Part shown: positions 7,393 to 47,128 of the stretch, one piece after another
Position numbering within the stretch: the stretch's first letter is position 1
How the letters are laid out: every line of letters begins with the position of its first letter
Assembly: GCF_014201615.1 (NCBI RefSeq)
Contig: NZ_JACHEU010000001.1
Coordinates: 2,561,631 to 2,625,630 of the forward strand
From: Aquamicrobium lusatiense
GTDB taxonomy: Bacteria > Pseudomonadota > Alphaproteobacteria > Rhizobiales > Rhizobiaceae
Length of the DNA stretch: 64,000 bases
Direction: 5' to 3'
Notes under the pieces: model-generated
The model's input: only the letters and a program-made list of their open reading frames with translations
The model's database searches: none
What the model was told of the DNA's origin: nothing
Program-made: the position numbers and the translations under genes

Positions 7393-8238
7393 TCACCCCT
7401 TGGCGATGCGGTCGAACGCCATCAGCTTTTCCAGCAGACGCGGCAGATCCTTCAGCGGCACCATGTTCGGACCGTCGGAGGGTGCATTGTCCGGGTCTTC
7501 ATGCGTTTCGATGAACACACCCGCGACGCCGACAGCCACCGCCGCCCGCGCCAGCGTTTCCACGAAACGCCGCTCGCCGCCCGACGAGCCGCCCTGCCCG
7601 CCCGGCTGCTGCACGGAATGGGTAGCGTCGAAGATCACCGGCGCGCCAAGCTCGGCCATGATCGGCAGAGCGCGCATGTCCGAAACCAGCGTGTTGTAGC
7701 CGAAAGACGCGCCGCGCTCCGTAACCAGCACATTGGAATTGCCGGAAGCGACGATCTTGGCGACGACATTCTTCACATCCCACGGCGCGAGAAACTGCCC
7801 CTTCTTGACGTTCACGACCTTGCCGGTGTTCGCCGCCGCGATCAGCAGGTCGGTCTGGCGGCTGAGGAAAGCTGGTATCTGGAGAATATCGACGTGAGGG
7901 GCAACGATGGCGCACTGCTCTTCGGTGTGGACATCGGTCAGAACCGGCAGGCCGAATTCCTTGCGGATGTCGTCGAAGATCGGCAGCGCGGCTTCGAGAC
8001 CGGCGCCACGCTTGCCGGAGAGCGACGTGCGGTTGGCCTTGTCGTAGCTGGTCTTGTAGACGAGGCCGATGCCAAGCTTTCCGGTCAGTTCCTTCAGCGC
8101 GCCGGCCATGTCGAAGGCGTGCTGCCGCGTCTCAAGCTGGCAGGGGCCGGCAATCAGCGCCAGCGGGGCGCTGTTGTCGAAGATTACGGTTCCGGCTTTC
8201 ACGGCGCTGTTGGGCACCGCTTTATCGAGCGTGGTCAT
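7393..8238 (-). CDS. kdsA: 3-deoxy-8-phosphooctulonate synthase (KDO-8-P synthase)
   Basis: The 281-residue enzyme condenses PEP and arabinose-5-phosphate, the first committed step to KDO for lipopolysaccharide. Family signatures include LIAGPCQLE near the start, [22 protein letters not shown] and [25 protein letters not shown] lies six bases before ATG, and the ATG overlaps the stop of the upstream VOC gene (ATGA). Unlike many Rhizobiales, pyrG is not directly upstream here. Confidence 0.97.
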
Positions 8239-13318: not shown

Positions 13319-15916
13319 TCAGCCTTCCAGCACTTCCTTGACCACAGTGGCCAGCTGCTTGAGGGAGAAGGGCTTCGGCAGGAAGCCGAATTGTGCATCC
13401 TCGGGCAGGTTTTTGGCGAACGCGTCCTCGGCATAGCCCGACACGAACACGAACCTGATATCGGGCTGACGCTTGCGCAGTTCGCCCAGAAGGGTCGGCC
13501 CGTCCATTTCCGGCATGACAACATCGGAGACGACGATGTCCACCTTGCCGTCCAGCTCTTCGAACAGTTCCAGCGCCTCGACCCCTGAGGAAGCCTCGTG
13601 CACGGTGTAGCCGCGCGAGGTCAGCGCCCTCACCCCGCCCATGCGCACCGCGTCCTCGTCCTCGACCAGCAGAACCGTCGCCGAACCGGAAAGGTCTCTC
13701 GCGGCATCTGCCTTCGCCTGAACCGCAGCAGCAGGAGCTTCCGCTCCGCCAGCGATCGCTTTCTGGTCCGCGCCGGCCGCGGGCTGCGCAGCAATGACCG
13801 GAACGTGACGCGGCAGGAAGATGCGGAAGGTGGTGCCCTTGCCCACTTCCGAATCGCAGAAGATGAAGCCGCCGGTCTGCTTGATGATGCCGTAGACCAT
13901 GGAAAGGCCGAGACCCGTGCCCTTGCCGACCTCCTTGGTGGTGAAGAAAGGCTCAAAAATCTTCTTCAGCACCTCTGCGGGAATGCCGCTGCCGTTGTCC
14001 TCGACCTCGACCAGCACATAATCGCCGGCTTCCAGTTCGCGATACGGGAAGGTCTTCGCCTCATCGGTCGTCACATTGCGGGTGCGAACCGTGAGCTCGC
14101 CACCTTCGGGCATGGCGTCGCGGGCATTCACCGCCAGATTGACGACCACCTGCTCGAACTGGCCGATATCCACCTTCACGGGCCACAGATCGCGCCCATG
14201 ATCGATGCGCAGCTTGATGTCGTTGCCGACCAGACGGGCCAGAAGCATGCGCAGATCGGCAAGAACGTCGGTCAGCGTCAGCACCTCCGGCCGCAGCGTC
14301 TGCTTGCGCGAGAAGGCCAGCAACTGCCGCACCAGCGAGGCCGCGCGGTTGGCGTTCTGCTTGATGTTCATGATGTCCGGGAAGGACGGATCGGACGGCC
14401 GGTGATTGGTCAGCAGCAGGTCCGAAGCCATGATGATGGCAGTGAGCACGTTGTTGAAGTCATGCGCGATGCCGCCGGCAAGCTGGCCGACCGCCTGCAT
14501 CTTCTGGCTCTGGGCCATCTGCGCTTCAAGCGCCTTCTGCTCGGTCGTTTCCACCGCATAGACGATCGCCGCTTCCTCGGCCCCGTCGCCATCGGCAACC
14601 GCATTCACATAGAAGCGGATGTGACGCTCTTCATTGTCGGGCAGAACCGTGTCGATCGGCGCAATGTCGGCTTGCCTCTGGCGGGCCTTCTCAAGCGCCG
14701 TCTCGAACGCCGGCCGGTCGCGCTCATGGATGACCGCATCGAGGCGCACCCGTCGGTCCAGCGCATCGCGATCCACCGCCGAGGCGAACAGCGACAGGAA
14801 CGGCGCATTGGTGCGCAGGATACGTCCCGCCTGATCGACGCCGGCAATGGCCATAGGCGTGGAGTTGAAGAAGCGTGTGAAACGCACCTCCGAAGCCCGC
14901 AGATCGGCGGACGAATCCTCGCCTTCCGTGCGGTTGAGCACGATGGTGCGCGCCGGGCCGGCATGTCCGTCGCGATTGACGGTGGCGCGATGCAGGAAGC
15001 GTACGGGCAGCGCCTCGCCCTTCATCGTCGTCAGATCAAGGTCGATCACCGCGTTGCGAACCGTACCGGGATCAGGACGTACCGAGCGCACCAGCGCCAT
15101 GCCGTCGCCGGCCACGATGTCGGAGAGTGTTACCACGCCCGGCGTAAAGCTCGCCAGATCGATGCCCAGCCATTCCGCCAGAGTGGCGTTCACATAGGTG
15201 ACGCGGCCATCCTGATCGGTTGAGAAGAAACCGGCCGGCGCATTATCGAGATGGTCGATGGCCTTTTGCAGGTCGAGGAAGAAGCGCTCCTGCTCTTCGC
15301 GCTCACGGGAAATGTCGGCCAGCTTCCAGGCATTGAACGGCTGACGCTGGCCGGGGATGCGGAACGCGCGCGCTTCGATACGATACCACCGCGCGCCGAC
15401 TTCGGCGCCGGGACGAATAGCTTGGCTGAGGCGAAACTCGCCATCGCCATGCTGGCCATCCCGCAGACCGCCGGCCAGCCGATAGATGACGGAAGAAGCT
15501 TCGGGCGCATCCGACAGCAGGCTTTCAACGGTTCTGATATCGGCAGCCGAGGCCGCTCCGGTCATCTCGGCATAGGCACGGTTGGCGTAGATGATGCGGT
15601 TTTTCGCATCAGTGACAACGAGGCCCTGCGCCATCGAATCCACGAAGGCCTTGGAAAGCTCGTCCCCGGTCGAGCGCGGGGCGATCTGGATGAAACCGAT
15701 CGCCGTCGCGAACAGGAAACCGACGCCGATCATCGCCAGCACGCCGAGCATGCCGAGTAGGAACGGATCGCCAAAGCGTTCCCGAAACAGCCCGAACACA
15801 ACTGCCGAGACGATCAGGATGAGGATGAAGATGATAAGCCGCGTTACCGTTCCGGGCCGTGTATCCTGATCTATCATCGGCACCGGATAGAAATCGCCGC
15901 GCGCGTCCTTGGCCAT
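13319..15916 (-). CDS. cckA: Cell-cycle hybrid histidine kinase CckA
   Basis: An 865-residue membrane kinase: two N-terminal membrane segments (about 25-75), tandem PAS-like domains (about 85-455), HisKA with phospho-acceptor His485 in [12 protein letters not shown], HATPase ([19 protein letters not shown]), an Ala/Gly linker, and a C-terminal receiver with phospho-acceptor Asp798 ([10 protein letters not shown]). This architecture is diagnostic of CckA, which feeds phosphate through ChpT to CtrA and CpdR. Neighbours (FliO-like, dksA) match other Rhizobiales. AGGGGG precedes the start. Confidence 0.94.
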
Positions 15917-32444: not shown

Positions 32445-32765
32445 TCATCCCTGCCGTTCGGGAATGGAGACAATCAGGCCGTCGAGTTCTTCCCGGATTC
32501 TGATCTGGCAGGAGAGGCGCGAGTTCGGGCGCACATCATAGGCGAAGTCGAGCATGTCCTCTTCCATGGCCTCCGGTTCGCCGACGACGTCGGTCCACGC
32601 CTCGTCCACATAGACGTGGCAGGTCGCACAGGCGCAGGCGCCGCCGCACTCCGCTTCGATACCGGGAATGGAATTGCGGATGGCGCTTTCCATTACGGTC
32701 GCACCGTTCTCGGCCTCGACATCGAAGCGGGTGCCGTCATGGGCGATGAATGTCAGCTTGGTCAT
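32445..32765 (-). CDS. 2Fe-2S ferredoxin, adrenodoxin type
   Basis: A 106-residue ferredoxin with cluster ligands Cys40, Cys46, Cys49 and Cys86 (CGGACACATC ... RLSCQI), the C-x5-C-x2-C-x36-C pattern of the adrenodoxin/FdxB class. AGGTGA lies five bases before the ATG at 32765. The likely role is electron transfer to iron-sulfur assembly, heme or P450-like enzymes. It stands alone here. Confidence 0.93.
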
Positions 32766-32852
32766 CTGGTCACCTGAGGGGGAAGTCTCCGCGGAGATAA
32801 TCACTCCGTGGTGCAAGTCAACTGCGGCGCAGCAGCGCCCCCGCCACAGGGT

Positions 32853-33236
32853 TCAGCCGTTGTGCGTGCCGTTGCACCGCCGGGCGATGAACATCAGAAC
32901 GGCCTGCGCCAGTTCATCCAGACGCCGCAGATTGCCATCGAGGTCGGGGGCCTTCTCGATCGCATCCGCTCCTTCGGCCAGCGCGAATGCTCCGACCCCG
33001 CGAGCCGCTCCTTTCAGGCCATGAGCCAGCGCCGCCCGCTCTTCAGGGGACGCGTCGCGAATGGTGGACAGAACCGTCCTGAGCTGGTCGTCGAGCAGCC
33101 CCAGAACCTCGGCCTGAAGTGCGGCATCCCCCATTGTCTGGCGATCCAGATGGGCAAGATCGATGGGCGGCTCTGCGGGTTTCCCACAATTTTCCAAAGC
33201 CTGTCCCGAAGTGGTCACATGTCCGCCTTCATTCAT
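32853..33236 (-). CDS. Orphan histidine phosphotransfer (Hpt) domain protein
   Basis: About 127 residues, essentially one Hpt domain: four-helix pattern with the phospho-acceptor His in AALAHGLKGAARGVGAFAL (His72 counting from the chosen start) followed by the typical Lys and Gly. GGGGGATATGGGCCG precedes ATG 33236; ATG 33290 is an alternative start. It is not ChpT, which is a larger HATPase-like pseudo-kinase. It is divergent from the giant GPR-like gene, so a link with polar development is possible but unproven. Confidence 0.82.
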   Translation of the reverse strand: MNEGGHVTTSGQALENCGKPAEPPIDLAHLDRQTMGDAALQAEVLGLLDDQLRTVLSTIRDASPEERAALAHGLKGAARGVGAFALAEGADAIEKAPDLDGNLRRLDELAQAVLMFIARRCNGTHNG

Positions 33237-33533
33237 CGGCCCATATCCCCCTGCACCGAACAGCATGATCGCGCCGCAGCCGAAGATCACAGAAACCGGT
33301 GGATAGCGGGTTAAAGAATGGAGCCCCGGCGCACGTAAAAATCGCGGATTTACAGGGTTTTCCCATCACAGCGCCGTTAACCTTATATTTAAAGTTTTAC
33401 GTATTGGCGCGAATGCATGTTTTATTTACCCCCCTGTGTCATTACGATACGAGGCTTCCATATGTGGCCTCTCGGCAGGGCGTAAAAGACCAGAACAAGA
33501 CGCTCCACGCAGCTAGTACAGGGTAGCGAAGGC

Positions 33534-36500
33534 ATGGCGAAGAAAACCACGACGGCAAAGTCCATCGACAAGGAAGTTGCCCAGGAGCTCGAAAAAGCCC
33601 TCGATCTTGATCTGAATCTTGATGTGGGCGATCTCGGCGACCTCGACATTGCAGCCTCGATGGAAGACCTCGAAGCGCAGATTGCGGAAGCTGCGGACGA
33701 GCTGGCGCGCGCCAGCCAGTCAGCGCAGACGCAGCAGGTGCAGGCGCCACCAAAGGTCCAGGCTCCTGTTTCGCAGCCATCTCCGGCCATTCAGCCACAG
33801 CCTGAAACGGCTGATCTTCGCCCTGTAGACCCGCAGCCTGCACAGCCGGCAGGCTTTGCTCCCGCAAACGATGATCGCCAGAAAGACTACAAGTCTCTCC
33901 TGCACAGCCTGAACCGCCGCACGCCCAATACCATCTACTGGGTGGTTGCCTTCCTGTCTCTGGCATGGATTGCAGGCGCTGCCGCGATCGCCAATCTTAC
34001 GCTTGGCCCCGACGTGTGGCAGGTCCGCAGCTTCGACCAATTCATTGCCCGTCCGCAACTGATGGGTCTGGTGGTTGCCACCATTTTGCCGATCATCATG
34101 TTCTGGGCTTTCGCCGCAATGGTGCGTCGCGCTCAGGAAATGCGCCTTGCCGCACAGTCCATGACCGAGATGGCCTTCCGTCTGGCCGAGCCGGAAACCA
34201 TGGCTCAGGACCGTGTCATGACGCTCGGCCAGGCCGTACGCCGCGAAGTCGCGGCCATGGGCGAAGGCATCGAGCGCACGCTGGCCCGCGCCGTCGAGCT
34301 GGAAACGCTGGTTCACAGCGAAGTCAACCAGATCGAACGCTCCTATTCCGAGAACGAGGCACGCATCCGCTCGCTGGTGGATGGGCTGGGCAGCGAACGC
34401 GAGGCCGTCGTTGGCCACGCGGAGCGCGTCCGCGCTTCCATCGCCGGCGCGCATGAAACGCTGCGCGAAGAGATCAACACGGCCGGTGACGCCATTCGCG
34501 AAAGCATAATGGGCGCATCGACGCAGCTGTCGATGACCATCACCAATTCGGGCGACGCCCTGATCGACCGGATCAACGAAAGCTCTTCGTCGATTTTCGA
34601 ATCGGTCGAGAGCCGTCTCGATTCCATCACCGACCGCCTCTCCACCTCCGGCGAGGCTTTCGCGAGCCTTCTCGATACGCGGATCGCCAAGCTCACCGAC
34701 AGCGCCGACGGCCTGACGCGCTCCCTTACCGAGCTGCTCGACGATCGCACCTCCGGCATGGTTTCACTGCTGGGCGGCGCCGCGCGCAACCTCACCTCCG
34801 AGTTCGAGGCCAGCCTTTCGGGCATCGAGCGCACGCTGGCCGAGCGCGGTCAGGCGCTGATCAGCGAGTTCGAAACCCGTGCCGAGGCGCTGGACACTGG
34901 CACCCAGAAGCTGAACGCCGCGCTCGAAGCACGCGCGCGCCAGATCAACGAGACGCTTGCCGACCGCACCCGCGACATCGCACAGGCCTTCACGTCCGGC
35001 AGGGATTCGCTGACAACCCTCATCGAGGAAGGCCGCGACCGCATCGGCGCCGATATGGCGGATCTCATCTCCTCCACCTCCACCATGCTCGAAGCCCGCG
35101 CCGGCGATTTCGCGGGACGCCTCGAATCCGCGCGCGACACCGTTTCCAGCGCCTTCGACGCCGATATCGAGCGTCTGGCCGAAGCGCGTGCCGGCATCGA
35201 CGACGCCGTGCGCCAGCACAGCGTGGAAATGGCGGAAAGCCGCGAGCGCATGGCTGCTGCGCTGCATGAGGATCTGGCCAAATTCGCCGAGGGTCGCGCC
35301 GAAATCGACAGCGTCGTCTCCGGCCAGATCGAAAAGCTGGCCGAAGGCCGCAACCTCATCTCGCGCGCGCTGGAAGAAGACCTGCGCAAGGTCAACGAAT
35401 CCCGCTCTGCCATCGATGCCTCGCTGGGCTCCCATCTGGAAGCCCTCGATGTTGGCCGCAAGCGGCTGGCGGATTCGCTGCACGAAGACTCCCAGAAGCT
35501 GGTGCAGGTGCGTGCAGACATTGATGAAATGGTCTCCAGCCATGTCAGCAAGCTGGCCGAGGGGCGCAACATTCTCACCCGCGCTCTGGAAGCCGACCTC
35601 ACCAAGCTGGCGGACAGCCGCTCCAGCATCGACGGGCTGGTTGCCGGTCAGGTGGAGAAGCTGGCGGAAGGCCGCGACGTCCTGCGCCGCGCCATGGAGG
35701 CCGATCTCGCCAACCTCAACCGCATGATCGCCGACCATTCGGAGAAGCTTGCAGGCGACCGCAACCTCCTTTCGCAGGTTCTGGAATCCGACCTTGCGAA
35801 GCTGGAAGAAAGCCGCTCCGGGCTCGATGGCCTCGTCGCCGGTCAGGTCGAGAAGCTGGCGGAAGGCCGTGACATTCTGCGCCGCGCCCTCGAAGCGGAT
35901 CTCGCCAACATCAACGGTCTCATTTCCGAACATGCCGACAAGATCGCCAGCGACCGCAGCGTGCTGTCGCAGGCTCTTGAGGCCGATCTTGCCAGACTGG
36001 CGGAGAGCCGTGCAGATATTGACGGTCTCGTCAGCGGTCAGGTCGCGAAGCTGACCGAAGGCCGTGACGTTCTCACCTCCGCACTGGAGCGCGACCTCGA
36101 CACCATCCGCGGCGTGATTGCCGAACAGTCACAGCAGATCACCGGCGAGCGCGAGCGCTTCTCGCAGTCGCTGGAAGATGATCTTCGCAACGTCAACAGC
36201 CTCGTCGGCGCCCATGCCGACCGTCTGGTTCAGGAGCGCGCCGCACTTGCAAAGGCGCTCGAAGACGACCTCGCAAAACTCGCCGAAAGCCGCTCCAGCA
36301 TCGACGGTCTCGTGGCCGCTCAGGTGGAGAAGCTGGCAGAGGGCCGCGACATCCTCAAGCGCGCCCTTGAAGCGGATCTTGCAAAACTGGCCGATAGCCG
36401 CGCCGGCATCGACGGGCTGGTCACCGGCCAGGTCGAGAAGCTGGCCGAAGGCCGCGATATTCTGACGCGCGCCCTGCAAGGCGATCTTGGCACCGTTCAG

Positions 36501-39500
36501 CAGGCGATCGCCGCGCAGGCCGAAAAGCTCGCAAACGATCGCGCCAGGCTGTCTCAGGCGCTGGACGAGGACCTCGCCCGCGTCAACGCGCTCATCGATC
36601 AGCATGCCGAGCGCCTCGCGCAGGACCGTGGCGCCCTCTCCCGCGTGCTTGAAGACGATCTGGCGAAGCTGGCTGAAAGCCGCGCCGGCATCGACGGGCT
36701 TGTTGCCGGTCAGGTCGAGAAGCTGGCCGAAGGCCGGACCATCCTGCAGCGTGCCCTCGAAGCCGATCTGGAGAAGATCTTCAACAGCCGCGGCCAGATC
36801 GAGGAAGCTGTTGCCGGACAGGTCGGCAAGCTTGCGGAGGCCCGTCAGGAGATCGACGTTGCCGTCACCGATCACATCGAACGTATCGCCTCGACCAGCA
36901 CGCGGATTTCCGATTCGATCACCGGCGACATCGAGCGCATCGAAAATGCGTTCGAGCGCCAGACCGGCGTGATCGAGGAGCGCACCAGCACCATGGAGCG
37001 CGCCCTGTCGATCGGTGTGGACAATATCCGCGGCACGCTTGAACAGAGCGCGGTGTCTGTCGCCAGTGCCCTGCGTGACAAGGTGCTGGAAGTCACGGCA
37101 GCGCTCAACGAGCAGGCCGGACTTGCCCTCAGCGATGCCGACCGCAAGATCGTGGAGCGCGCCGAGCAGACCTCCGCCGCGCTGCTGGCCCGCGCTCACG
37201 ACATTTCCCGCACCTTCGAGGAAGCGGAAAACAGGCTTGCCGCCAGGGCGGAAGACACCTCTTCGATGCTCGTCGCACGCGCCGAGGAAACCGCCGACAC
37301 GCTGGCGGCCCGGGCAGGCAACATCGTCGAGAGCTTCGAGGTCGCGGATCAGCGCCTTGCCCAGCGCGCCATGGAAACGGCGCAGTCGCTGGCGGCGCGC
37401 GCAGGCGACATCCTGCGCAACTTCGAGGATGCGGATAACCGTCTTGGCGCCCGCATCGGCGAATCCGCCGAGGCGCTTGCTGCACGCGCGGCAGATCTCG
37501 GCCGCATCTTCGATGCCGCCGACCAGCAGCTCATGGCCCGCATCGCGGAGGGCTCGGAAGCCCTTGGCGGCCGCGCCGCCGAAATGGGCCGCATCTTCGA
37601 CGCTGCCGATGATACGCTGACCCGGCGTATCGCCGAAGGCTCACAGGCCCTTGCCGGCCGTGCCGCCGAGATCGGAAGCGTGTTCGACGCGGCCGACCAG
37701 AGGCTGTCGCAGCGCATTGACGAAGGCTCGCAAACCCTCGTCGGCCGCGCTGCGGAAGTTGGTCGCGTCTTCGAGGAAGTCGACCAGAAGATTACCCAGC
37801 GCATCGCCGAAAGTTCTGAGACCCTCGCCGGTCGTGCCGCCGAGATCGGAGGCGTGTTCGACGCGGCCGACCAGAAACTCACGCAGCGCATCGCCGAAGG
37901 CTCGCAGGCCCTCGTTGGTCGTGCAGCGGAAGTGGGCCGCGTCTTCGAAGCCGTCGACCAGAAGCTCACCCAGCGTATTGCCGAAGGGTCCGAAGTTCTC
38001 GGCGAACGTGCAGGCGAGATTGCCCGCGTGTTCGACGAAGCCGACAACCGCATGGTGTCGCGCATCGCCGACACCGCCTCGACGATCGGCCAGCATGCGG
38101 ACAGCATTGTCGGCGCCTTCGCCGACACGGAACGTCAGGTGGCCGCCCGCGCTGCCGAGACCAGCAGGGCGCTGTCCGATCAGGCGCGCTCCATCGAGGC
38201 AGCACTTGCCGGAGCCGACGAGCGCCTTGCCGCCGGTGCAGCCACGGTTGCCAGCCGCATTGGCGAGGAAGTCGCCAGCGTCGAGAACCGCCTCGCCCGC
38301 TCGGCCGAAACCATGGGCGAGAAGCTTGGCGAGCAGGTTGCCCGCGCCGAAAGCCAGTTGGTTGCCCGCGCCGATGCCATCGCAGAGACCTTCACTGCCG
38401 TTGGCCAGCATATCGGCCAGAGCACCAACGAAGCTGCGAAGACGATCGGCACCAACACCCGCGAACTCAACGAGATGCTGGCCGCCCGTTCGGCCGAAAT
38501 GACCCGCATCCTCGACGAGACCGCGCGTCCTCTGGTCGAGCGTTTCGCCGAAGGCGGTTCCGAGCTCCAGAAGAGCATGGAAGAAGCGACCGAGCGCGCC
38601 ACCGAAAAGCTGCGGCATGAAAATGCCCGCCTCGCCGGTGCGCTCGCCAACCGCACGGCGGAAACCCTCTCGGCCGTGGAAAACGCCCGGGCTACCCTCG
38701 CCGAGAGCATCAACGACCTGATCGGCCGCCTCGGCGCGTCGAGCCAGGGGCTCGGCCAGCTCATCGAGAATGCCGCAGCCAATCTTGGCGAGATCGACGA
38801 GCGGCTGGCCGGCAGTACGCAAAGCTTCGCCGCGACCACGGAAAAAGCCGCGCAGACCTTTGCAAGCTCGGCCCGGCTGGTGGATTCCAACGCATCGCGC
38901 CTCACCGAGCTGTCGTCCAACACGCTGCGCGAGGTGGCTTCCATCGCCACCAAATTCGACGAGCACAGCCGTCTCCTCTCCAGTGCGTCGGAGCTGCTGA
39001 GCTCCGCCCAGAGCAATCTGGAGCACACGCTGGAGCGCCAGTCCTCGCTGGACGACCTCGCCGTCGGGCTGGTGAAGAAATCGGAAGACCTCGAAAAGGT
39101 GATGAAGTCCTTCGAGTCGCTTGTCGGCCGCACCCTGCAGACGGCAGAAAGCCGGACGCTGGAATCGGCGGACAAGATCCGTTCGTCCATCGGCGACGTG
39201 GTCGAGACCGCCACCAAGCGTTTCGCCGACGCAACCGAGGACATGCGCCGCACAGCTGCCGCCATCAAGGGCGAGCTGGACCTGACCCGCGCCGAACTCA
39301 AGCGCGGCGTCGTGGAAATGCCGGCCGAGGCCAAGGAATCGACGACGGCCATCCGCCGCGCCGTTTCCGAGCAGATCAACGCGCTGAAGGAACTGTCCGC
39401 GATCGTCGCCAGGTCCGGCCGTGGCCCGGATGCTTCCGAGGCCAATCTGCGCCCTGCCGCACCGGCGCCGGCCCCTCGCCCGGCCGAACAGCCGCGCCAG

Positions 39501-40100
39501 GCGCAAACCGCGGTTCAGCCGGCAGCACCGGCGCCGGCGGCCGCCAATCCTCTGGGCGACACCGCACTGCGCGGCGGGCTGGATACCCGGCCGCGGGCGG
39601 AACCGGCCGTGCGCCAGCGCGAACCGGAAAACCGCTCGCAACAGCAGGGCGGCTGGGTCCGCGATCTGCTGAGCGGCGCCTCGCGTGAGGATGGCGCCAA
39701 GCCGGCGGCATCAGATGCGCCGCGCACGGCAAAGCCGGCCGAGCGTTCGCCGCTTCATGTCGTCGAGTCGCTCAACTCGCTGTCGGTCGACATCGCACGC
39801 GCCATCGACCATGAGGCATCGATCGAGCTGTGGAACCGCTATCGCCGTGGCGAACGCGACGTGTTCACGCGCCGCCTCTACACGCTCAAGGGCCAGCAGA
39901 CATTCGACGACATTCGCCGCAAGTATCAGGCGGAAGCTGAATTCCGCGCCGCCGTCGATCGCTATTGCGAGGATTTCGAGAAACTGCTGAAGGACGTTGC
40001 CCGCACCGACCGCGACAACATCATGACGCAGACCTATCTCACCTCGGATACCGGCAAGGTCTACACCATGCTGGCCCATGCTTCGGGCCGGCTGCGGTAA
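33534..40100 (+). CDS. Growth Pole Ring (GPR)-like giant coiled-coil polarity protein
   Basis: A 2188-residue protein. Order: acidic and Pro/Gln-rich cytoplasmic N-terminus (1-130), two membrane helices (about 133-158 and 176-198), a very long helical region (about 200-2000) containing two repeat arrays, a Pro/Ala linker (about 1970-2070), and a conserved globular C-terminus (SLNSLSVDIARAIDHEASIE...). Array 1 (about 543-1115) alternates units around GLVAGQVEKLAEGRDILRRA; array 2 (1267-1585) has eleven contiguous 29-residue units such as VFDAADQKLTQRIAEGSQAL. Size and layout match Agrobacterium GPR (2115 residues), which forms a ring at the growing pole and is essential for polar growth and rod shape. 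Databases often label such proteins kinesin- or apolipoprotein-like. Confidence 0.85.
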   Translation: MAKKTTTAKSIDKEVAQELEKALDLDLNLDVGDLGDLDIAASMEDLEAQIAEAADELARASQSAQTQQVQAPPKVQAPVSQPSPAIQPQPETADLRPVDPQPAQPAGFAPANDDRQKDYKSLLHSLNRRTPNTIYWVVAFLSLAWIAGAAAIANLTLGPDVWQVRSFDQFIARPQLMGLVVATILPIIMFWAFAAMVRRAQEMRLAAQSMTEMAFRLAEPETMAQDRVMTLGQAVRREVAAMGEGIERTLARAVELETLVHSEVNQIERSYSENEARIRSLVDGLGSEREAVVGHAERVRASIAGAHETLREEINTAGDAIRESIMGASTQLSMTITNSGDALIDRINESSSSIFESVESRLDSITDRLSTSGEAFASLLDTRIAKLTDSADGLTRSLTELLDDRTSGMVSLLGGAARNLTSEFEASLSGIERTLAERGQALISEFETRAEALDTGTQKLNAALEARARQINETLADRTRDIAQAFTSGRDSLTTLIEEGRDRIGADMADLISSTSTMLEARAGDFAGRLESARDTVSSAFDADIERLAEARAGIDDAVRQHSVEMAESRERMAAALHEDLAKFAEGRAEIDSVVSGQIEKLAEGRNLISRALEEDLRKVNESRSAIDASLGSHLEALDVGRKRLADSLHEDSQKLVQVRADIDEMVSSHVSKLAEGRNILTRALEADLTKLADSRSSIDGLVAGQVEKLAEGRDVLRRAMEADLANLNRMIADHSEKLAGDRNLLSQVLESDLAKLEESRSGLDGLVAGQVEKLAEGRDILRRALEADLANINGLISEHADKIASDRSVLSQALEADLARLAESRADIDGLVSGQVAKLTEGRDVLTSALERDLDTIRGVIAEQSQQITGERERFSQSLEDDLRNVNSLVGAHADRLVQERAALAKALEDDLAKLAESRSSIDGLVAAQVEKLAEGRDILKRALEADLAKLADSRAGIDGLVTGQVEKLAEGRDILTRALQGDLGTVQQAIAAQAEKLANDRARLSQALDEDLARVNALIDQHAERLAQDRGALSRVLEDDLAKLAESRAGIDGLVAGQVEKLAEGRTILQRALEADLEKIFNSRGQIEEAVAGQVGKLAEARQEIDVAVTDHIERIASTSTRISDSITGDIERIENAFERQTGVIEERTSTMERALSIGVDNIRGTLEQSAVSVASALRDKVLEVTAALNEQAGLALSDADRKIVERAEQTSAALLARAHDISRTFEEAENRLAARAEDTSSMLVARAEETADTLAARAGNIVESFEVADQRLAQRAMETAQSLAARAGDILRNFEDADNRLGARIGESAEALAARAADLGRIFDAADQQLMARIAEGSEALGGRAAEMGRIFDAADDTLTRRIAEGSQALAGRAAEIGSVFDAADQRLSQRIDEGSQTLVGRAAEVGRVFEEVDQKITQRIAESSETLAGRAAEIGGVFDAADQKLTQRIAEGSQALVGRAAEVGRVFEAVDQKLTQRIAEGSEVLGERAGEIARVFDEADNRMVSRIADTASTIGQHADSIVGAFADTERQVAARAAETSRALSDQARSIEAALAGADERLAAGAATVASRIGEEVASVENRLARSAETMGEKLGEQVARAESQLVARADAIAETFTAVGQHIGQSTNEAAKTIGTNTRELNEMLAARSAEMTRILDETARPLVERFAEGGSELQKSMEEATERATEKLRHENARLAGALANRTAETLSAVENARATLAESINDLIGRLGASSQGLGQLIENAAANLGEIDERLAGSTQSFAATTEKAAQTFASSARLVDSNASRLTELSSNTLREVASIATKFDEHSRLLSSASELLSSAQSNLEHTLERQSSLDDLAVGLVKKSEDLEKVMKSFESLVGRTLQTAESRTLESADKIRSSIGDVVETATKRFADATEDMRRTAAAIKGELDLTRAELKRGVVEMPAEAKESTTAIRRAVSEQINALKELSAIVARSGRGPDASEANLRPAAPAPAPRPAEQPRQAQTAVQPAAPAPAAANPLGDTALRGGLDTRPRAEPAVRQREPENRSQQQGGWVRDLLSGASREDGAKPAASDAPRTAKPAERSPLHVVESLNSLSVDIARAIDHEASIELWNRYRRGERDVFTRRLYTLKGQQTFDDIRRKYQAEAEFRAAVDRYCEDFEKLLKDVARTDRDNIMTQTYLTSDTGKVYTMLAHASGRLR
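35160..36880 (+). repeat. Coiled-coil repeat array 1 within the GPR-like gene
   Basis: About 16 imperfect units of 29-36 codons built on GLVAGQVEKLAEGRDILRRA with the tail LEADLAKLAESR. Long (36-codon, starting SRxxIDG) and short (29-30-codon) forms alternate. The unit lengths are heptad-compatible plus one residue. Confidence 0.8.
37332..38288 (+). repeat. Eleven tandem 87-base (29-residue) repeats in the GPR-like gene
   Basis: Units begin at residues 1267, 1296, 1325, 1354, 1383, 1412, 1441, 1470, 1499, 1528 and 1557 without any gap. The consensus is VFDAADQKLTQRIAEGSQAL followed by xGRAAEVGR. The central six units are the most alike; the edges decay, as expected of an array expanded from the middle. 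Confidence 0.88.
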
Positions 40101-40549: not shown

Positions 40550-41200
40550 TCAGGTGAGCGGCGAAAGCTGGATCTCGACGCGGCGGTTCTTCGCGCGCCC
40601 GTCGGCGGTGCCGTTGCTGGCGATCGGGCGGGTCTTGCCGAAACCGCTGACGGCGAACCTGCGCTGATCCACGCCCTGCCCCGAGAGGTAGTTGGCGACC
40701 GAAAGCGCACGGCGCTGCGACAGGTCGTAATTGTGCTGATCGCTGCCGGTGGAGTCGGTGTGGCCATACACATCGACCAGCGTCTGGTTGTACTTGCGCA
40801 GAACCAGCGCCACCGAATTCAGCACCGGATAGAAGTCGGCCCGCACTGCGTCCTGATCGACACCGAAGGTGATGTCGGAGGGCATGTTGAGCATGATCTG
40901 GTTGCCGACACGGGTGACGCTCACGCCGGTGCCCTGCAACTGCGCGCGCAGCTCAGCTTCGTTCTGGTCCATCTTGGCGCCGACCAGACCGCCGGCGAGC
41001 GCACCCACACCAGCGCCGATCAGGGCGTTGCGGCGATCATCGCCACCTGCAAGCGTGCCAAGTGCCGCGCCGGCCAGAGCACCGATGCCCGCGCCGCCGG
41101 CCGTGTTGGAAATCTTCTGCTGGCCGGTATAGGGGTCGGTCGAGCATGCCGCCGTCAAAGCGCCGGCAACCATCATGGCGATCACTGTTCTGGTCTTCAT
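40550..41200 (-). CDS. OmpA-family lipoprotein with glycine-zipper region (YiaD-like)
   Basis: A 216-residue outer-membrane lipoprotein: signal peptide with lipobox LTAAC (Cys19), a Gly-rich glycine-zipper segment (about 35-75, GGAGIGALAGAALGTLAGG), and a C-terminal OmpA peptidoglycan-binding domain with VYGHTDSTGSDQHNYDLSQR and GFGKTRPIASN...KNRRVEI. It should tether the outer membrane to peptidoglycan. It is monocistronic, with its own terminator. Confidence 0.93.
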   Translation of the reverse strand: MKTRTVIAMMVAGALTAACSTDPYTGQQKISNTAGGAGIGALAGAALGTLAGGDDRRNALIGAGVGALAGGLVGAKMDQNEAELRAQLQGTGVSVTRVGNQIMLNMPSDITFGVDQDAVRADFYPVLNSVALVLRKYNQTLVDVYGHTDSTGSDQHNYDLSQRRALSVANYLSGQGVDQRRFAVSGFGKTRPIASNGTADGRAKNRRVEIQLSPLT

Positions 41201-41338
41201 CAGGATTATCCCTCATAAGCTGCGACGCAGTAAGCGCCCTTGGTCCCTTGCCGCCCGTTCTAGCATAAAATACGGCGAAAAGCGGAACTTGGTAGCCCTT
41301 TTGGGCTCAGGCCGGGGCTTTCCCCGGCCATTTGGCCA

Positions 41339-42470
41339 TCACTCCAGATCTGCAACCACTTCGCCGGACCCGCCTTCGATACGCTGGGACAGGGAAGCTT
41401 CCATGAACTCGTCCAGATCGCCATCGAGAACATTCGACGGGCTGGTCGATTCCACGCCGGTGCGCAGGTCCTTCACGAGCTGATAGGGCTGCAACACATA
41501 GGAGCGGATCTGGTGGCCCCAGCCGATATCGCTCTTGGACGATTCGGTTGCGTTGGCTGCCGCCTCGCGCTTCTTCAGCTCTTCCTCATAGAGGCGCGAG
41601 CGCAGCATTTCCCAAGCCTTGGCACGGTTCTTGTGCTGCGAACGCTCCGCCTGACAGGCAACGGCGATGCCGGTGGGGATATGGGTGATGCGCACGGCCG
41701 AATCCGTGGTGTTGACGTGCTGGCCACCCGAACCCGACGAGCGATAGGTATCGATACGCACTTCTGATTCCGGAATCTCGATGACGATCGAATCGTCGAT
41801 GACCGGATAGACCCAGACACTGGCGAACGAGGTATGGCGGCGTGCATTGCTGTCATAGGGCGAAATACGCACAAGGCGGTGCACGCCCGATTCCGTCTTC
41901 AGCCAGCCATAGGCGTTCTGGCCCTTGATATGCACCGTGGCGGACTTTATCCCCGCCTCTTCGCCGTCATGGACTTCGAGCACCTCGACCTTGAACCTGC
42001 GGCGCTCCGCCCAGCGCGTGTACATGCGCAGCAGCATGGAGGCCCAGTCCTGGCTTTCGGTGCCGCCAGCACCTGCATGGATTTCAAGATAGGTGTCGTT
42101 GGAATCGGCCTCGCCGGACAGCAGGGTCTCGACCTGACGGGCCTTCACCTCGCCGCGCATCGCGCGCAGGGCGTCCTCGGCCTCGGTGACGATGCTGTCG
42201 TCACCCTCCTCCTCGCCCATCCCGATGAGTTCGAGATTGTCGGCAAGCGACTGCGTCAGGCTTTTGACGGCGCTGATTCCGTCATCAAGCGTCTGGCGCT
42301 CGCGCATCAGTTTCTGGGCTTCCTGCGGATCGTTCCAGAGCGTGGAATCTTCCGCCAGAACGTTCAGATACTCCAGTCGTTTAAGAGCCTGATCCCAGTC
42401 AAAGATGCCTCCTCAGCAGGGTTATGGCCTGCTTGATTTCGTCGACAATATTCTGCGTTTCGGCGCGCAT
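41339..42470 (-). CDS. prfB: Peptide chain release factor 2, made by programmed +1 frameshift
   Basis: RF2 (376 residues after frameshifting) terminates at UGA and UAA. The first 23 codons ([20 protein letters not shown]...) run from 42470 to an in-frame TGA at 42401; skipping one base continues into [16 protein letters not shown] and the rest. The body has the RF2 codon-recognition region as [13 protein letters not shown] (SPF in E. coli) and the GGQ hydrolysis motif in [16 protein letters not shown]. It follows mrcA on the same strand. A naive call from the ATG at 42307 would lose the N-terminal domain start. Confidence 0.96.
42398..42413 (-). promoter_or_regulatory. prfB programmed +1 frameshift site
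   Basis: On the minus strand the sequence reads AGGAGG-CAT-CTT-TGA-C: an internal Shine-Dalgarno, three bases, the CUU slippery codon, then the in-frame UGA with a following C. The spacing is identical to the E. coli prfB site. Low RF2 lets the ribosome pause at UGA and shift, giving autoregulation. Confidence 0.96.
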
Positions 42471-42551
42471 GGTTCGGCGCTGGTCCCTTATTGATGTAGA
42501 TCGGATTGCTGGGCGCGATACATAGGCAGAGGGGCCGCCCCTGTAAAGCGA

Positions 42552-42578
42552 AATGGGCAGGCGCACGGCCTGCCCATT
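42552..42578 (-). terminator. Hairpin downstream of mrcA
   Basis: AATGGGCAGGC and GCCTGCCCATT form an 11-base stem about 25 bases after the mrcA stop. The T tract is weak (TTTCGCTTT), so termination may be partial and allow read-through to prfB. Confidence 0.5.
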
Positions 42579-42603
42579 GAATTGCCAGAGCGCGAAAGCC
42601 GGG

Positions 42604-45048
42604 TCAGTAAAGGCCGCCGCCACCCGACTGGATGGCCTGATTGGCCTGTGGCGAAAGTGCTTCGCCGTAGCCGTTGGAGCCATCCTCGCCCATGCCGATG
42701 ACCCAGTAGGAGTCGGCCGGGCCGGTGCCGGGCTTGAAGGCCTCCATGATGGTGCCCGGCTGGCCGGGTGTCGCCTGCATGCCCGTCTTGCGGTCGATGG
42801 AGACGAGGTTCATGCCATCCGGCACCTTGAAGTCGACATTCGGCGTGCCTTCGAGCGCGGCGCGCATGAAGTCCTTGAACACCGGCGCGGACAGACCGCC
42901 ACCGGTCGTGCCGCGACCGAGGCTCCTCGGCTTGTCGTAGCCCAGATAGAGGCCGACCACTAGATTAGGCGTATAGCCGATGAACCAGGCGTCCTTTTCG
43001 TCGTTGGTCGTGCCGGTCTTGCCGGCGATATGGCGGCCAAGCTCGGCCACGGAGGTGGCGGTGCCCCGCTGCACCACGCCCACCATCATCGAGGTGATCT
43101 GGTAGGCGGTCATCGGATCGAGAACCTGTTCCGCATTGTCGATCAGTTCAGGCTCCGGCTGGTTCTGCCAGTCGCTGGCATTGCAGCCCTCGCAGCCGCG
43201 ATCGTCGTGCCGGAAAACGGTCTTGCCGTAGCGGTCCTGAATGCGGTCGATGAGCGAAGGTTTGATCGAGCGGCCGCCATTGGCCATGATCGCATAGGCT
43301 GAAACCATGCGCATCACGGTCGTTTCGCCCGAACCGAGGGACATCGGCAGATAAGGTGCAAGCTTGTCGTAGACGCCGAAGCGCTCGGCATACTCGGCCA
43401 CCAGCTTCATGCCCATGTCGTTGGCGAGGCGAACCGTCATCAGGTTGCGTGAACGCTCGATGCCGGACCGCAGCGTCGAGGGGCCGGCGGCGCGGCCATC
43501 ATAGTTCTTCGGCGTCCATACGGTGTTGCCGCTGTGGATGGTGATGGGACCGTCCATGATCACCGAAGCCGGCGTGTAGCCATTGTCCAGCGCAGCCGCA
43601 TAGACGATCGGCTTGAACGAGGAGCCCGGCTGGCGCATCGCCTGGGTGGCGCGGTTGAATTCCGACTGGGCGTAGGAGAAGCCGCCGACCATGGCCAGAA
43701 CGCGCCCGGTATGCGGATCCATGGCGATCATGCCGCCGCTCACCTCGGGCATCTGACGCAGGCGATAGGTGTTTTCACCGCCTTCCTGCTTCTCCACGAA
43801 CACGACATCGCCGGGCTTCAGCACATCGGCGGGAGAGTTCGCCTTCAGCGTCTTGCCGTCCACGACATGGCGCATGGCAAACGACATGTCTTCCTTGGAA
43901 ACGGTGCCTTCGACGCGCTCCCTGACCAGTTCACCCGAAACCTGCCTTGCCGGCTTCAGACCGATGCGGAGCCCGGAAGCACCGCTTTCCAGAACGACGG
44001 CGAGCGTCCATTCCGGCACATCGTCCAGCCCCTTGACCTCGCCCAGCGGCACGCCCCAGTCGCCGGAAACGTCGATCGACGTCACCGGGCCGCGATAACC
44101 GCGCAGCGTGTCGTATTTGATCAGGCCGGTCTGCATGGCCTTGCGCGCGATGCGCTGCATGTCCGGGTTGAGCGTGGTGCGCACCGAAAGGCCGCCCTCG
44201 TAGAGGGCCGTCTGGCCATAGCGGGAAATGATCTCGCGGCGCACTTCCTCGGTGAAATATTCGCCGGCGAACAGATAGGTGCCGCCGCGCCGCGGCTTGA
44301 CGCCCAGCCCTTCGGCCTTGGCCTTTTCCGCCTCTTCCCGCGAGATGTAATTGTTCTCCACCATCTGGTCGATCACCCAGTTGCGGCGCTCTATGGCGCG
44401 CTCGGTGTGGCGGAACGGATGATAGTTGGCCGGGCCTTTGGGCAATGCCGCCAGATAAGCGGCATCTGCGGTGGTCAGTTCGTTCACAGACTTGTCGAAA
44501 TAGGTGAGCGCCGCGCCCGCTATGCCATAGGCGCCGAGACCGAAGAAGATTTCGTTGAGGTAGAGTTCGAGGATGCGATCCTTGGAATAGGCTTCCTCGA
44601 TACGGAACGACAGCACGGCTTCCTTGATCTTGCGGTCAAGGGTCTGCTCGTTGGTCAAAAGGAAGTTCTTGGCGACCTGCTGGGTAATGGTCGAGCCGCC
44701 CTGCATGGGACCGCCGGAGACATAACGAACCGCAGCGCGGCCGATGCCCTGAATGTCGATACCCGGATGATTGTAGAAATTCTTGTCTTCAGCCGAAAGG
44801 AAGGCAGCCTTCACACGATCCGGTATGGCCTGGATCGGCAGATACAGCCGGCGCTCATGCGCATATTCAGCCATCAGCGAACCATCGGAAGCATGAATGC
44901 GCGTCGTTACGGGCGGCTCATATCTGGCCAGCACTTCATAGTCGGGCAGATCCTTGGAAAGATTGCCGACATAGACAGCCACGCCCGCTGCCACGAGCAG
45001 GGCAACCGCTGTACCGATGCCGAAAAAATAGCCCAATAGACGAATCAT
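42604..45048 (-). CDS. mrcA: Penicillin-binding protein 1A, bifunctional class A PBP
   Basis: An 814-residue class A PBP: N-terminal membrane anchor (about 5-27), GT51 glycosyltransferase with AEDKNFYNHPGIDIQGIGRA and GGSTITQQVAKN, an OB-like insert (about 310-440), and a transpeptidase domain with SSFKP (Ser nucleophile in QPGSSFKPIVY), SRN (here RSRNLMTVRL) and KTGTT. It polymerises and cross-links peptidoglycan. GGAGCGGGC precedes the ATG. It lies 200 bases after the amidase gene on the same strand. Confidence 0.97.
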   Translation of the reverse strand: MIRLLGYFFGIGTAVALLVAAGVAVYVGNLSKDLPDYEVLARYEPPVTTRIHASDGSLMAEYAHERRLYLPIQAIPDRVKAAFLSAEDKNFYNHPGIDIQGIGRAAVRYVSGGPMQGGSTITQQVAKNFLLTNEQTLDRKIKEAVLSFRIEEAYSKDRILELYLNEIFFGLGAYGIAGAALTYFDKSVNELTTADAAYLAALPKGPANYHPFRHTERAIERRNWVIDQMVENNYISREEAEKAKAEGLGVKPRRGGTYLFAGEYFTEEVRREIISRYGQTALYEGGLSVRTTLNPDMQRIARKAMQTGLIKYDTLRGYRGPVTSIDVSGDWGVPLGEVKGLDDVPEWTLAVVLESGASGLRIGLKPARQVSGELVRERVEGTVSKEDMSFAMRHVVDGKTLKANSPADVLKPGDVVFVEKQEGGENTYRLRQMPEVSGGMIAMDPHTGRVLAMVGGFSYAQSEFNRATQAMRQPGSSFKPIVYAAALDNGYTPASVIMDGPITIHSGNTVWTPKNYDGRAAGPSTLRSGIERSRNLMTVRLANDMGMKLVAEYAERFGVYDKLAPYLPMSLGSGETTVMRMVSAYAIMANGGRSIKPSLIDRIQDRYGKTVFRHDDRGCEGCNASDWQNQPEPELIDNAEQVLDPMTAYQITSMMVGVVQRGTATSVAELGRHIAGKTGTTNDEKDAWFIGYTPNLVVGLYLGYDKPRSLGRGTTGGGLSAPVFKDFMRAALEGTPNVDFKVPDGMNLVSIDRKTGMQATPGQPGTIMEAFKPGTGPADSYWVIGMGEDGSNGYGEALSPQANQAIQSGGGGLY

Positions 45049-45247
45049 GCCCGCTCCGTTCGAGACTTCATGGCCCTCCGGTACGACGCATCAGCGCGCA
45101 CAAAAACCCGAAAAGTGCCAGGATCGGGAACCATTGTCGCCCTCATGTGGGTAAATTACGGCAGCGGGCAAACCCGATTCTCGAAGGCCCTCACAATATC
45201 GTACTGTGTTGTGCGCTTGCAACGCTGCCTTTGCCGTCCGGAGGCCC

Positions 45248-46513
45248 TCACCCGCCGGCTGCGGCCTTGGCCGAAGCAAAGGCGGATATGGCATTGATGA
45301 TGCTGTTTGCGGCCTTGTCCCGCCATTCTGGGTTGATCAGTTGCGCCTCGTCTTCCGGATTGGACAGATAGCCAAGTTCGACCAGAACCGATGGCACATC
45401 GGGTGCGCGCAAAACCCTGAACCCGGCAAAACGGTGCGGGTTGTTGATCAGTCCAACCGTTGTGGACAGTTCTCCCACAAGCGTATTGGCAAAGCTCATC
45501 GAGAAGGAATGCGTCTCGCGACGGATCAGGTCGAACAGAATGTCGGCCACTTCCGGGCTGTCAACCTTCACCTCGACGCCACCAAGCTGGTCCGACAGGT
45601 TTTCGCGCTCCGCCAGCGCCTGCGCCTCGGCATCCGAAGCCTTGTCGGACACGGTATAGACGGTGGCGCCGCGGATGCCCTTGAGCCGGATCGTATCGGC
45701 ATGAATTGAAATGAACAGATCGGCCTCATTCTGCCGCGCGATCCGCACCCGGTCATCCAGGCGCAGGAAAACGTCGCTGTCGCGTGTCAGGATGACATCG
45801 TATTTGTGCGTACTGGCAAGCTTCGCCTGCAGTTCGCGGGCAAACGCCAGCGTGATTTCCTTTTCCTGCGTACCGCTGACGCCCTCCGCTCCCCCGTCGA
45901 TGCCGCCATGCCCCGGATCAAGAACCACGGTGAAGCGCTTGAGCGGATGGTTCGACCTGCGGTCGCCCTTGTCGCCGGCGACTGTCGAGGCCGTGGTCAT
46001 CGCCTGCTCGGCCAGCGCCGCCTCAAACTCGCGGTCTGAAGCCGCCGAAATCTCGATGGCGATGCGGTAACCCTTACCGTCCTCGTTTTTGAGAACATCG
46101 AGCCGGTCCACCATGAACGGCCCTTTGCCGGAGATGAGCAGGCGGGATTTGCCATCCCCGGTGCTGCCGTAGCGCACACCGGCCACCAAACCCTTAGCCT
46201 TGAGATCGGAGGTCGCGATTCTCATGTTCGTCGACGGAAGATCGATGACAAGCCTGTGCGGCGCACGCAACAGGAACCAGTGCGGCTCCGGTTCGCCGTC
46301 GAAATTCATCACGATGCGCATTTTGGTGGCATCGCCGGCCATCCTGTATTCGCTGGCGGTAACGGTCTCACCGGCCAGCACGGATGAAGGCATCAGCGCC
46401 TGCAATCCGCAAAGCAGAACCATAAGAGCAAGAACGGCAAGCAGACGCCCGACGGCGCCGGCCGACTTGCGATTTTCGGTATGCGTCCCGATATAATGTC
46501 GCGTGGCTTCCAT
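45248..46513 (-). CDS. amiC: N-acetylmuramoyl-L-alanine amidase with AMIN domain (AmiC-like)
   Basis: About 421 residues: signal peptide/anchor (about 22-47), an AMIN domain (about 50-160) for localisation to peptidoglycan or the septum, and a zinc Amidase_3 domain with VVLDPGHGGIDGGAEG, ISIHADTIRLKG and VLVELGYLSNPEDE (the catalytic Glu). It separates daughter cells by cutting stem peptides. The start is uncertain: ATG 46513 gives a normal signal peptide but has a weak ribosome binding site. Its neighbour mrcA supports an envelope role. Confidence 0.93.
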   Translation of the reverse strand: MEATRHYIGTHTENRKSAGAVGRLLAVLALMVLLCGLQALMPSSVLAGETVTASEYRMAGDATKMRIVMNFDGEPEPHWFLLRAPHRLVIDLPSTNMRIATSDLKAKGLVAGVRYGSTGDGKSRLLISGKGPFMVDRLDVLKNEDGKGYRIAIEISAASDREFEAALAEQAMTTASTVAGDKGDRRSNHPLKRFTVVLDPGHGGIDGGAEGVSGTQEKEITLAFARELQAKLASTHKYDVILTRDSDVFLRLDDRVRIARQNEADLFISIHADTIRLKGIRGATVYTVSDKASDAEAQALAERENLSDQLGGVEVKVDSPEVADILFDLIRRETHSFSMSFANTLVGELSTTVGLINNPHRFAGFRVLRAPDVPSVLVELGYLSNPEDEAQLINPEWRDKAANSIINAISAFASAKAAAGG

Positions 46514-47128
46514 TGCGGCGGCTTGCCCGTTGTTGATCGTAACGCCGATACGACGCAATTCGATTAACGGTTCGTAGCCAAAGAAGGTTAACCAAGCCTT
46601 TGCGAACACGACATTGCGCGATGCAGTGTGTGTTTGCCGGCATCCGAAAACAGGGTTGCGTTCCACCTCGCCAAATCTTAAAAGCAGCGGTGGACTACCG
46701 CAATCTCGGAACCGTCCCCCTGCGATTCTGCCCGCCATGGAAAGTGGCCGGCATCGTCCTCGCGGGATAGATACGGTTCGCGGCTGGTCACAAAAAAGGT
46801 TTTCGCAGGCATGAACCCGTGGCGGGGAGTGGTCTGCGTTCATGAAAACGGCTCGGGTCTGCCCGGCCGGCTCTGATCAAGAGCAAACAAGCTGGTCCGG
46901 TTTCCCGGGCTTTGGTTCAAAAGGTCCAGTGGCTCACAATGCCCTCAAGCGCCAAAATGGAAAGTTCCGCATCACACCGCGCCACCATGGCAGCGGGCGG
47001 CTTTGCCATCGCGCTTCGGCGACAGGCCGCGGACATACAATTATCCGGCACCCTCAACCTTTTCAGACGGCAACGGCGGGCATGGCCCGGCTGGCCGGCA
47101 CGGGTGGCTGCCGGGAGGAAACGCAGTA
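46514..47128. other. 615-base divergent region; long rne leader
   Basis: No convincing gene. It must hold the amidase promoter and the rne promoter. A 7-base inverted repeat CATGAAC...GTTCATG spans 46810-46844, and the last 300 bases are rich in short hairpins. RNase E genes in other bacteria have long structured leaders through which the enzyme degrades its own mRNA, so this is a plausible autoregulatory leader. Confidence 0.5.

Follow-up and report, generated by a model that had tools for sequence, protein, structure and literature searches.

An orthologue of the polar growth proteins GPR and RgsE in the Aquamicrobium lineage and the Hpt gene that lies head to head with it

GPR of Agrobacterium tumefaciens (Atu1348, 2115 aa) is described in published work as a protein with two N-terminal membrane helices and about 1700 helical residues with apolipoprotein-like domains (PMC8262873). 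According to the same paper, GPR forms a ring, its loss leads to loss of rod shape, and its function suffers when 10, 221 or 332 residues are removed from the C-terminus (PMC8262873). RgsE (SMc00190) of Sinorhizobium meliloti is published as a 2089-residue GPR homologue that is 42% identical to Atu1348. In that study, RgsE is polar and its depletion produces curved, irregular cells (PMC7327166). GPR has also been termed similar (PMC8546619) or analogous (PMC13170164) to TipN of Caulobacter crescentus. Published work treats GPR as a scaffold for polar wall synthesis in bacteria that lack MreB, and Rgs and MreB homologues are said to be mutually exclusive (PMC7327166).

In this study, we analysed a stretch of 64,000 nucleotides from Aquamicrobium lusatiense, referred to here as the window. 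Translation of positions 33534-40100 on the forward strand gave a single frame of 2188 codons with zero internal stops. This frame tops the coding scores within the window, with a G+C content at the three codon positions of 0.72/0.47/0.78. The gene and its parts are as follows.

33534-40100 (+): gpr/rgsE orthologue, 2188 aa; translation, coding score and BLASTP against RgsE of S. meliloti (651 bits)
33534-33875 (+): N-terminal cytoplasmic part, residues 1-114, acidic and then Pro/Gln-rich, with an ANDD motif common to relatives
33930-34127 (+): membrane hairpin, residues 133-158 and 170-198; hydrophobic segments and alignment of the N block
34128-34343 (+): conserved block following the hairpin, residues 199-268 (RAQEMRLAAQSMTEMAFRLAEPE...RREVAAM...ELETLVHSEV); alignment
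34344-39740 (+): repetitive, Pro-poor rod, whose C-terminal end merges into a Pro-rich linker; composition, Pfam and periodicity
37569-38003 (+): five 29-residue repeats within the rod, residues 1346-1490; periodicity and DNA repeats
39741-40097 (+): conserved C-terminal domain, residues 2070-2188; profile search, RgsE alignment and AlphaFold2 model

The first-pass annotation had called the product GPR-like and listed four features: an N-terminus that is acidic, a pair of membrane helices, about 1800 residues of helix and a conserved C-terminal domain. The acidic N-terminus was read directly from the translation, and the two helices were recovered as the hydrophobic segments of the hairpin. 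The hairpin and the block that follows it had a mean column identity of 47% in an alignment of 24 sequences. The long helix was upheld in part: the 1840 residues after the hairpin proved to be a Pro-poor, periodic stretch (0.9% Pro and no Cys by composition count), but its helical state is inferred. The rod matched the Pfam model PF01442 Apolipoprotein with 108.7 bits (cut-off 90). It was strongly periodic at lags 29, 58, 18 and 36, with a value of 0.53 at lag 29 compared to -0.40 or less in 50 shuffles, and its tandem repeats were also visible at the DNA level. The C-terminal domain was confirmed as conserved, its 119 residues being matched in 60 of the 61 genomes searched, the window's own included. 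The last 136 residues were predicted to be all-helical in an AlphaFold2 model (mean pLDDT of 81.7).

We then compared the protein with RgsE of S. meliloti. The BLASTP alignment started at residue 1 and extended over 2336 columns with 30% identity and 17% gaps, so the rod is weakly kept at these values. The membrane block was 52% identical and the C-terminal 119 residues were 80% identical to RgsE. A tblastn search of the plasmid collection matched six records, one of which was S. meliloti Ak57; its gene (L052:9520-15789), annotated as 'kinesin', encodes 2089 aa, which is the published length of RgsE. The gene order folK-folB-folP-DUF922-Fer2-Hpt-gpr was common to S. meliloti and the window. 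The two proteins are alike in architecture, in both conserved ends and in the upstream order with a divergent Hpt gene, and have similar lengths (2089 vs 2188 aa). They differ in the rod, which is weakly alignable between them, and in its dominant repeat lags, which are 22 and 11 in RgsE but 29 in the window protein; among nine proteins compared, lags 22 and 11 also led in several relatives. The neighbourhood in the window differs in having one extra gene, of the MFS type, inserted. The tie to Atu1348 runs via RgsE. Both non-repetitive ends are conserved with RgsE, a published GPR homologue (PMC7327166), which supports the proposed membership of the GPR family. These results indicate that the gene is a member of the known GPR/RgsE family and that gpr itself is ordinary.

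It had also been claimed that the organism grows from the pole and that GPR is essential for such growth. The second claim was too strong, since strains deleted for rgsE or gpr are able to grow in published work, although their growth is slow and their cells are misshapen (PMC7327166). For the first, we searched the window genome for MreB and MreC. The MreB profile PF06723 gave two matches, DnaK and FtsA, and MreB is thus absent by this search; the PF04085 search for MreC gave zero matches in the genome. Both are likewise absent from known polar growers, the MreB-less group of the Hyphomicrobiales. Within the family, PF06723 matched in 41 of 41 genomes with a best E-value of 4e-18, and the best matches lay in frames of about 640-730 codons; genuine MreB gave E-values of 1e-80 to 1e-153 in the survey of GPR-bearing genomes described next, and the other 40 family genomes were assessed by E-value and frame size alone. 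However, MreB was present in 23 of 45 GPR-bearing genomes. Within the order it was found in 4 of 26; from outside the order, 19 of 19 had it, and these 19 are a choice from 59 such genomes with a C-terminal match, 11 of the 19 having been chosen for their Hpt. Because of this co-occurrence, membership of the GPR family does not mark a genome as that of a polar grower, and the exclusion between Rgs and MreB fails for GPR-family proteins in this sample. The easy step from a GPR-family gene alone to polar growth is corrected accordingly. Polar growth of the host fits the absence of MreB and MreC and is plausible from its gene content, but GPR alone does not prove it.

Two other readings of the gene were weighed against this background. 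One holds that the similarity comes solely from low-complexity coiled coil or apolipoprotein-like repeats and that the protein is not a true GPR. Weak matches to unrelated coiled-coil models, such as pneumococcal PspA (18.3 bits, cut-off 850) and ApoLp-III (below cut-off), would agree with it. Since the membrane block and the C-terminal residues are conserved with RgsE at the identities given above, homology outside the coiled coil stands, and its absence, which the first-pass annotation had named as grounds for rejecting the GPR assignment, is not observed; the conserved protein ends contradict the repeat-based reading, the gene order is conserved as well, and we consider this reading almost certainly wrong. 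The other holds that the GPR-family member here is a general polarity or envelope scaffold instead of an organiser of polar growth, as maybe in MreB-bearing relatives. The joint occurrence of GPR and MreB, in 4/26 genomes of the order and 19/19 outside, speaks for such a role, but the window genome has neither MreB nor MreC and its protein is near RgsE in sequence and length, so that we regard it as unlikely.

The best explanation overall, with a probability of roughly 0.87, is that the gene is the Aquamicrobium-lineage gpr/rgsE orthologue serving polar growth and that the neighbouring Hpt gene is a separate new lead. Judging from characterised relatives, the hairpin would anchor GPR in the inner membrane, and the rod would be cytoplasmic and self-assemble into a polar ring. 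The C-terminal domain would make contacts needed for function. The ring would hold peptidoglycan and membrane synthesis at the growing pole. The Hpt protein, for its part, would relay phosphoryl groups from hybrid kinases, one or several, to a response regulator in control of the timing or the site of polar growth.

The region upstream of gpr contains the following features.

32445-32816 (-): 2Fe-2S ferredoxin gene, the conserved neighbour beyond Hpt; gene-order comparison
32853-33236 (-): gene for a single-domain Hpt protein (127 aa if read from an inner ATG), head to head with gpr; PF01627 and identity to S. meliloti
33237-33533 (no strand): intergenic region between the divergent hpt and gpr, with TTAA-N8-TTAA at about 33377-33392; motif scan

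The longest Hpt frame begins at a GTG at 33290. Against PF01627 (cut-off 24.6), the window Hpt scored 24.5 bits as the annotated frame and 26.1 bits when the whole genome was searched, and the S. meliloti orthologue, to which it is 48% identical over 101 columns, scored 37.1 bits. The phospho-acceptor histidine motif HxxKG is present as HGLKG. The histidine was kept in 30 of the 34 loci with Hpt upstream of gpr and lost in L042, L054, L062 and L064. The last three, which are Sphingomonas-like, retain the position of Hpt beside the gpr-like gene. In the Mesorhizobium group, Hpt was 33-53% identical to that of the window, and the histidine was among eight invariant columns (36 sequences, from the best 80 of 535 stretches). 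The top solved match of the Hpt profile was 2ooc_A, 'Histidine phosphotransferase', with an E-value of 2.6e-11 (runner-up, 4.6e-4), which we take to be ShpA of Caulobacter.

Hpt is the sole Pfam Hpt match in the window genome. Besides CckA, this genome encodes at least three hybrid kinases that end in receivers, two of them with tandem receivers, and the Hpt model was unmatched in all three. Because Hpt is the one Pfam Hpt of the genome, it may be the natural partner of the hybrid kinases, and perhaps their shared outlet. Atypical phosphotransferases such as ChpT lie outside PF01627; as ChpT-like proteins escape this model, the window Hpt need not be the sole phosphotransferase. According to published work, the ShkA-ShpA-TacA relay controls polar morphogenesis in Caulobacter, and ShkA has tandem receivers (PMC7010744), as do two hybrid kinases of the window genome. 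The likeness of the window Hpt to ShpA, by way of the best profile match, is one of sequence resemblance alone. The window itself encodes the cell-cycle hybrid histidine kinase CckA at 13319-15916 (-), which matches NCBIfam NF046020 with 1459 bits (cut-off 1000) and is located about 18 kb away from gpr.

We next determined how widely the two genes are paired. A profile search showed that 34 of 84 loci have Hpt upstream of gpr in divergent orientation; this set leaves out four genomes of the order whose gpr meets a contig end. The pairing was seen in the window and in all three named records (S. meliloti, Shinella and Sphingomonas), and other families of the order had it in 19 of 22 loci. Outside the order, it was seen in 11 of 58 loci, some of which have little or no upstream sequence. 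In the Mesorhizobium group, taken from the best 80 of 535 stretches with 8 of the 80 loci incomplete, Hpt lay within 1.5 kb of gpr in 69 of the 72 loci with the whole gene, and in two of the three exceptions Hpt lies at a greater distance, next to a gpr frame that is shortened. A Pfam Hpt match near gpr (E <= 0.01) was found in 31 of 37 genomes, which have 3.05 Hpt matches on average and of which 11 were picked for having Hpt near gpr. Without the picked genomes, the count was 22 of 26 (18/22 in other families and 4/4 in the genus). The gpr-adjacent Hpt was the sole Pfam Hpt match in four genomes, the window's included.

Unbiased clustering of the upstream frames placed Hpt first with 31 of 84 loci, followed by ferredoxin with 24 of 84; a cluster of 25 loci on the opposite strand near the ferredoxin position resembles a ferredoxin shadow. 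A tree of the conserved ends, midpoint-rooted for drawing alone, showed the GPRs of the order as one clade (100/100) within a clade of 31 rows (98/88), of which 28 have Hpt. Only the share of the order (the window and 19/22) is unbiased here, because the eight outside-order rows of the clade were selected for Hpt.

The pairing may nevertheless be historical. Within the order, 16 of 20 loci have the ferredoxin gene as a neighbour of gpr, and so do 60 of 60 loci of the Mesorhizobium group (from the best 80 of 535); since it is nearly as constant as Hpt within the order, an old conserved block without functional meaning is possible. On this account, Hpt would be a chance or historical neighbour in an old ferredoxin-Hpt-gpr block, functionally unlinked to GPR. 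The loci L038, L049 and L051, which have no Hpt beside gpr, agree with it, as do the only Hpt match of G044, which is on another contig, and the 47 of 58 outside-order loci in which no Hpt was found. However, no other upstream gene is shared by as many loci in the clustering (31 for Hpt vs 24 for ferredoxin, of 84), and in Sphingomonas an annotated Hpt gene and the gpr-like gene are arranged head to head, with no ferredoxin annotated within the 16 kb covered. We give this account about an even chance. A more tentative proposal is that gpr and the divergent Hpt might form a two-gene alphaproteobacterial polarity module, in which a ShpA-like Hpt feeds a phosphorelay that sets when or where GPR builds or retires the growing pole, a proposal that we hold to be rather doubtful. 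If true, polar wall growth would receive a cell-cycle signal by way of a dedicated and so far undescribed relay. A search of openly licensed papers, as far as their text was available, gave no paper that links Hpt to GPR. The Hpt-gpr pairing is the part worth pursuing, as a testable lead, and a conserved Hpt with an invariant phospho-histidine beside gpr makes switching of the GPR ring accessible to S. meliloti genetics.

The intergenic region was also scanned for CtrA-like TTAA pairs. Pairs with N7 spacing occurred between hpt and gpr in 6 of 34 loci, compared to a mean of 0.3 and a maximum of 2 in shuffles, which preserve local base content alone. In the Mesorhizobium group (from the best 80 of 535), TTAA-N8-TTAA occurred in 69 of 69 hpt-gpr regions and the N7 form in 0 of 69.

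A scan with the C-terminal domain gave Aquamicrobium defluvii DSM 11603 as the closest named relative among the best 80 of 535 confirmed stretches. It is identical to the window in the C-terminal domain (100%), 80.8% identical over the whole protein and 80.6-84.9% identical in four DNA pieces. Besides A. defluvii, most of these 80 stretches belonged to Mesorhizobium. The RgsE study uses Mesorhizobium loti RgsE homologues as reference sequences (PMC7327166), and the family was therefore already known in this group. Distant RgsE homologues had likewise been noted in Emcibacterales and Rhodospirillales in the same study (PMC7327166). Across the class, the C-terminal model matched 62 of 153 genomes, the window's own included, and the open frames concerned measured 517-2418 codons. 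Named gpr-like relatives include a 774-aa protein of Sphingomonas parapaucimobilis, and listing names suggest Rhizomicrobium for another gpr-like group.

The gpr frames (L032-L114) varied in length between 517 and 2618 codons, with both ends staying in place. Frames of more than 1200 codons were found mostly in MreB-less genomes (15/18 vs 2/23), the genomes not being phylogenetically independent. In L018 (G031, 3 contigs) and L025 (G011, 1 contig), the frame with the GPR C-terminus had just 431 and 1034 codons; these are either broken genes or sequencing errors in repeats. The rgsE gene of L052 (CP090106.1) is on a 3.7 Mb record titled pSymB, which may be a misnamed chromosome because of its size. 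Behind gpr, the window has genes for an OmpA-like lipoprotein, prfB, PBP1a and AmiC at 40550-46843 (-). This arrangement is local: among 60 named loci (from the best 80 of 535), the lipoprotein was found in one, prfB in one, PBP1a in two and AmiC in one. The sole tRNA of the window is tRNA-Glu (ttc) at 7394-7485 (+).
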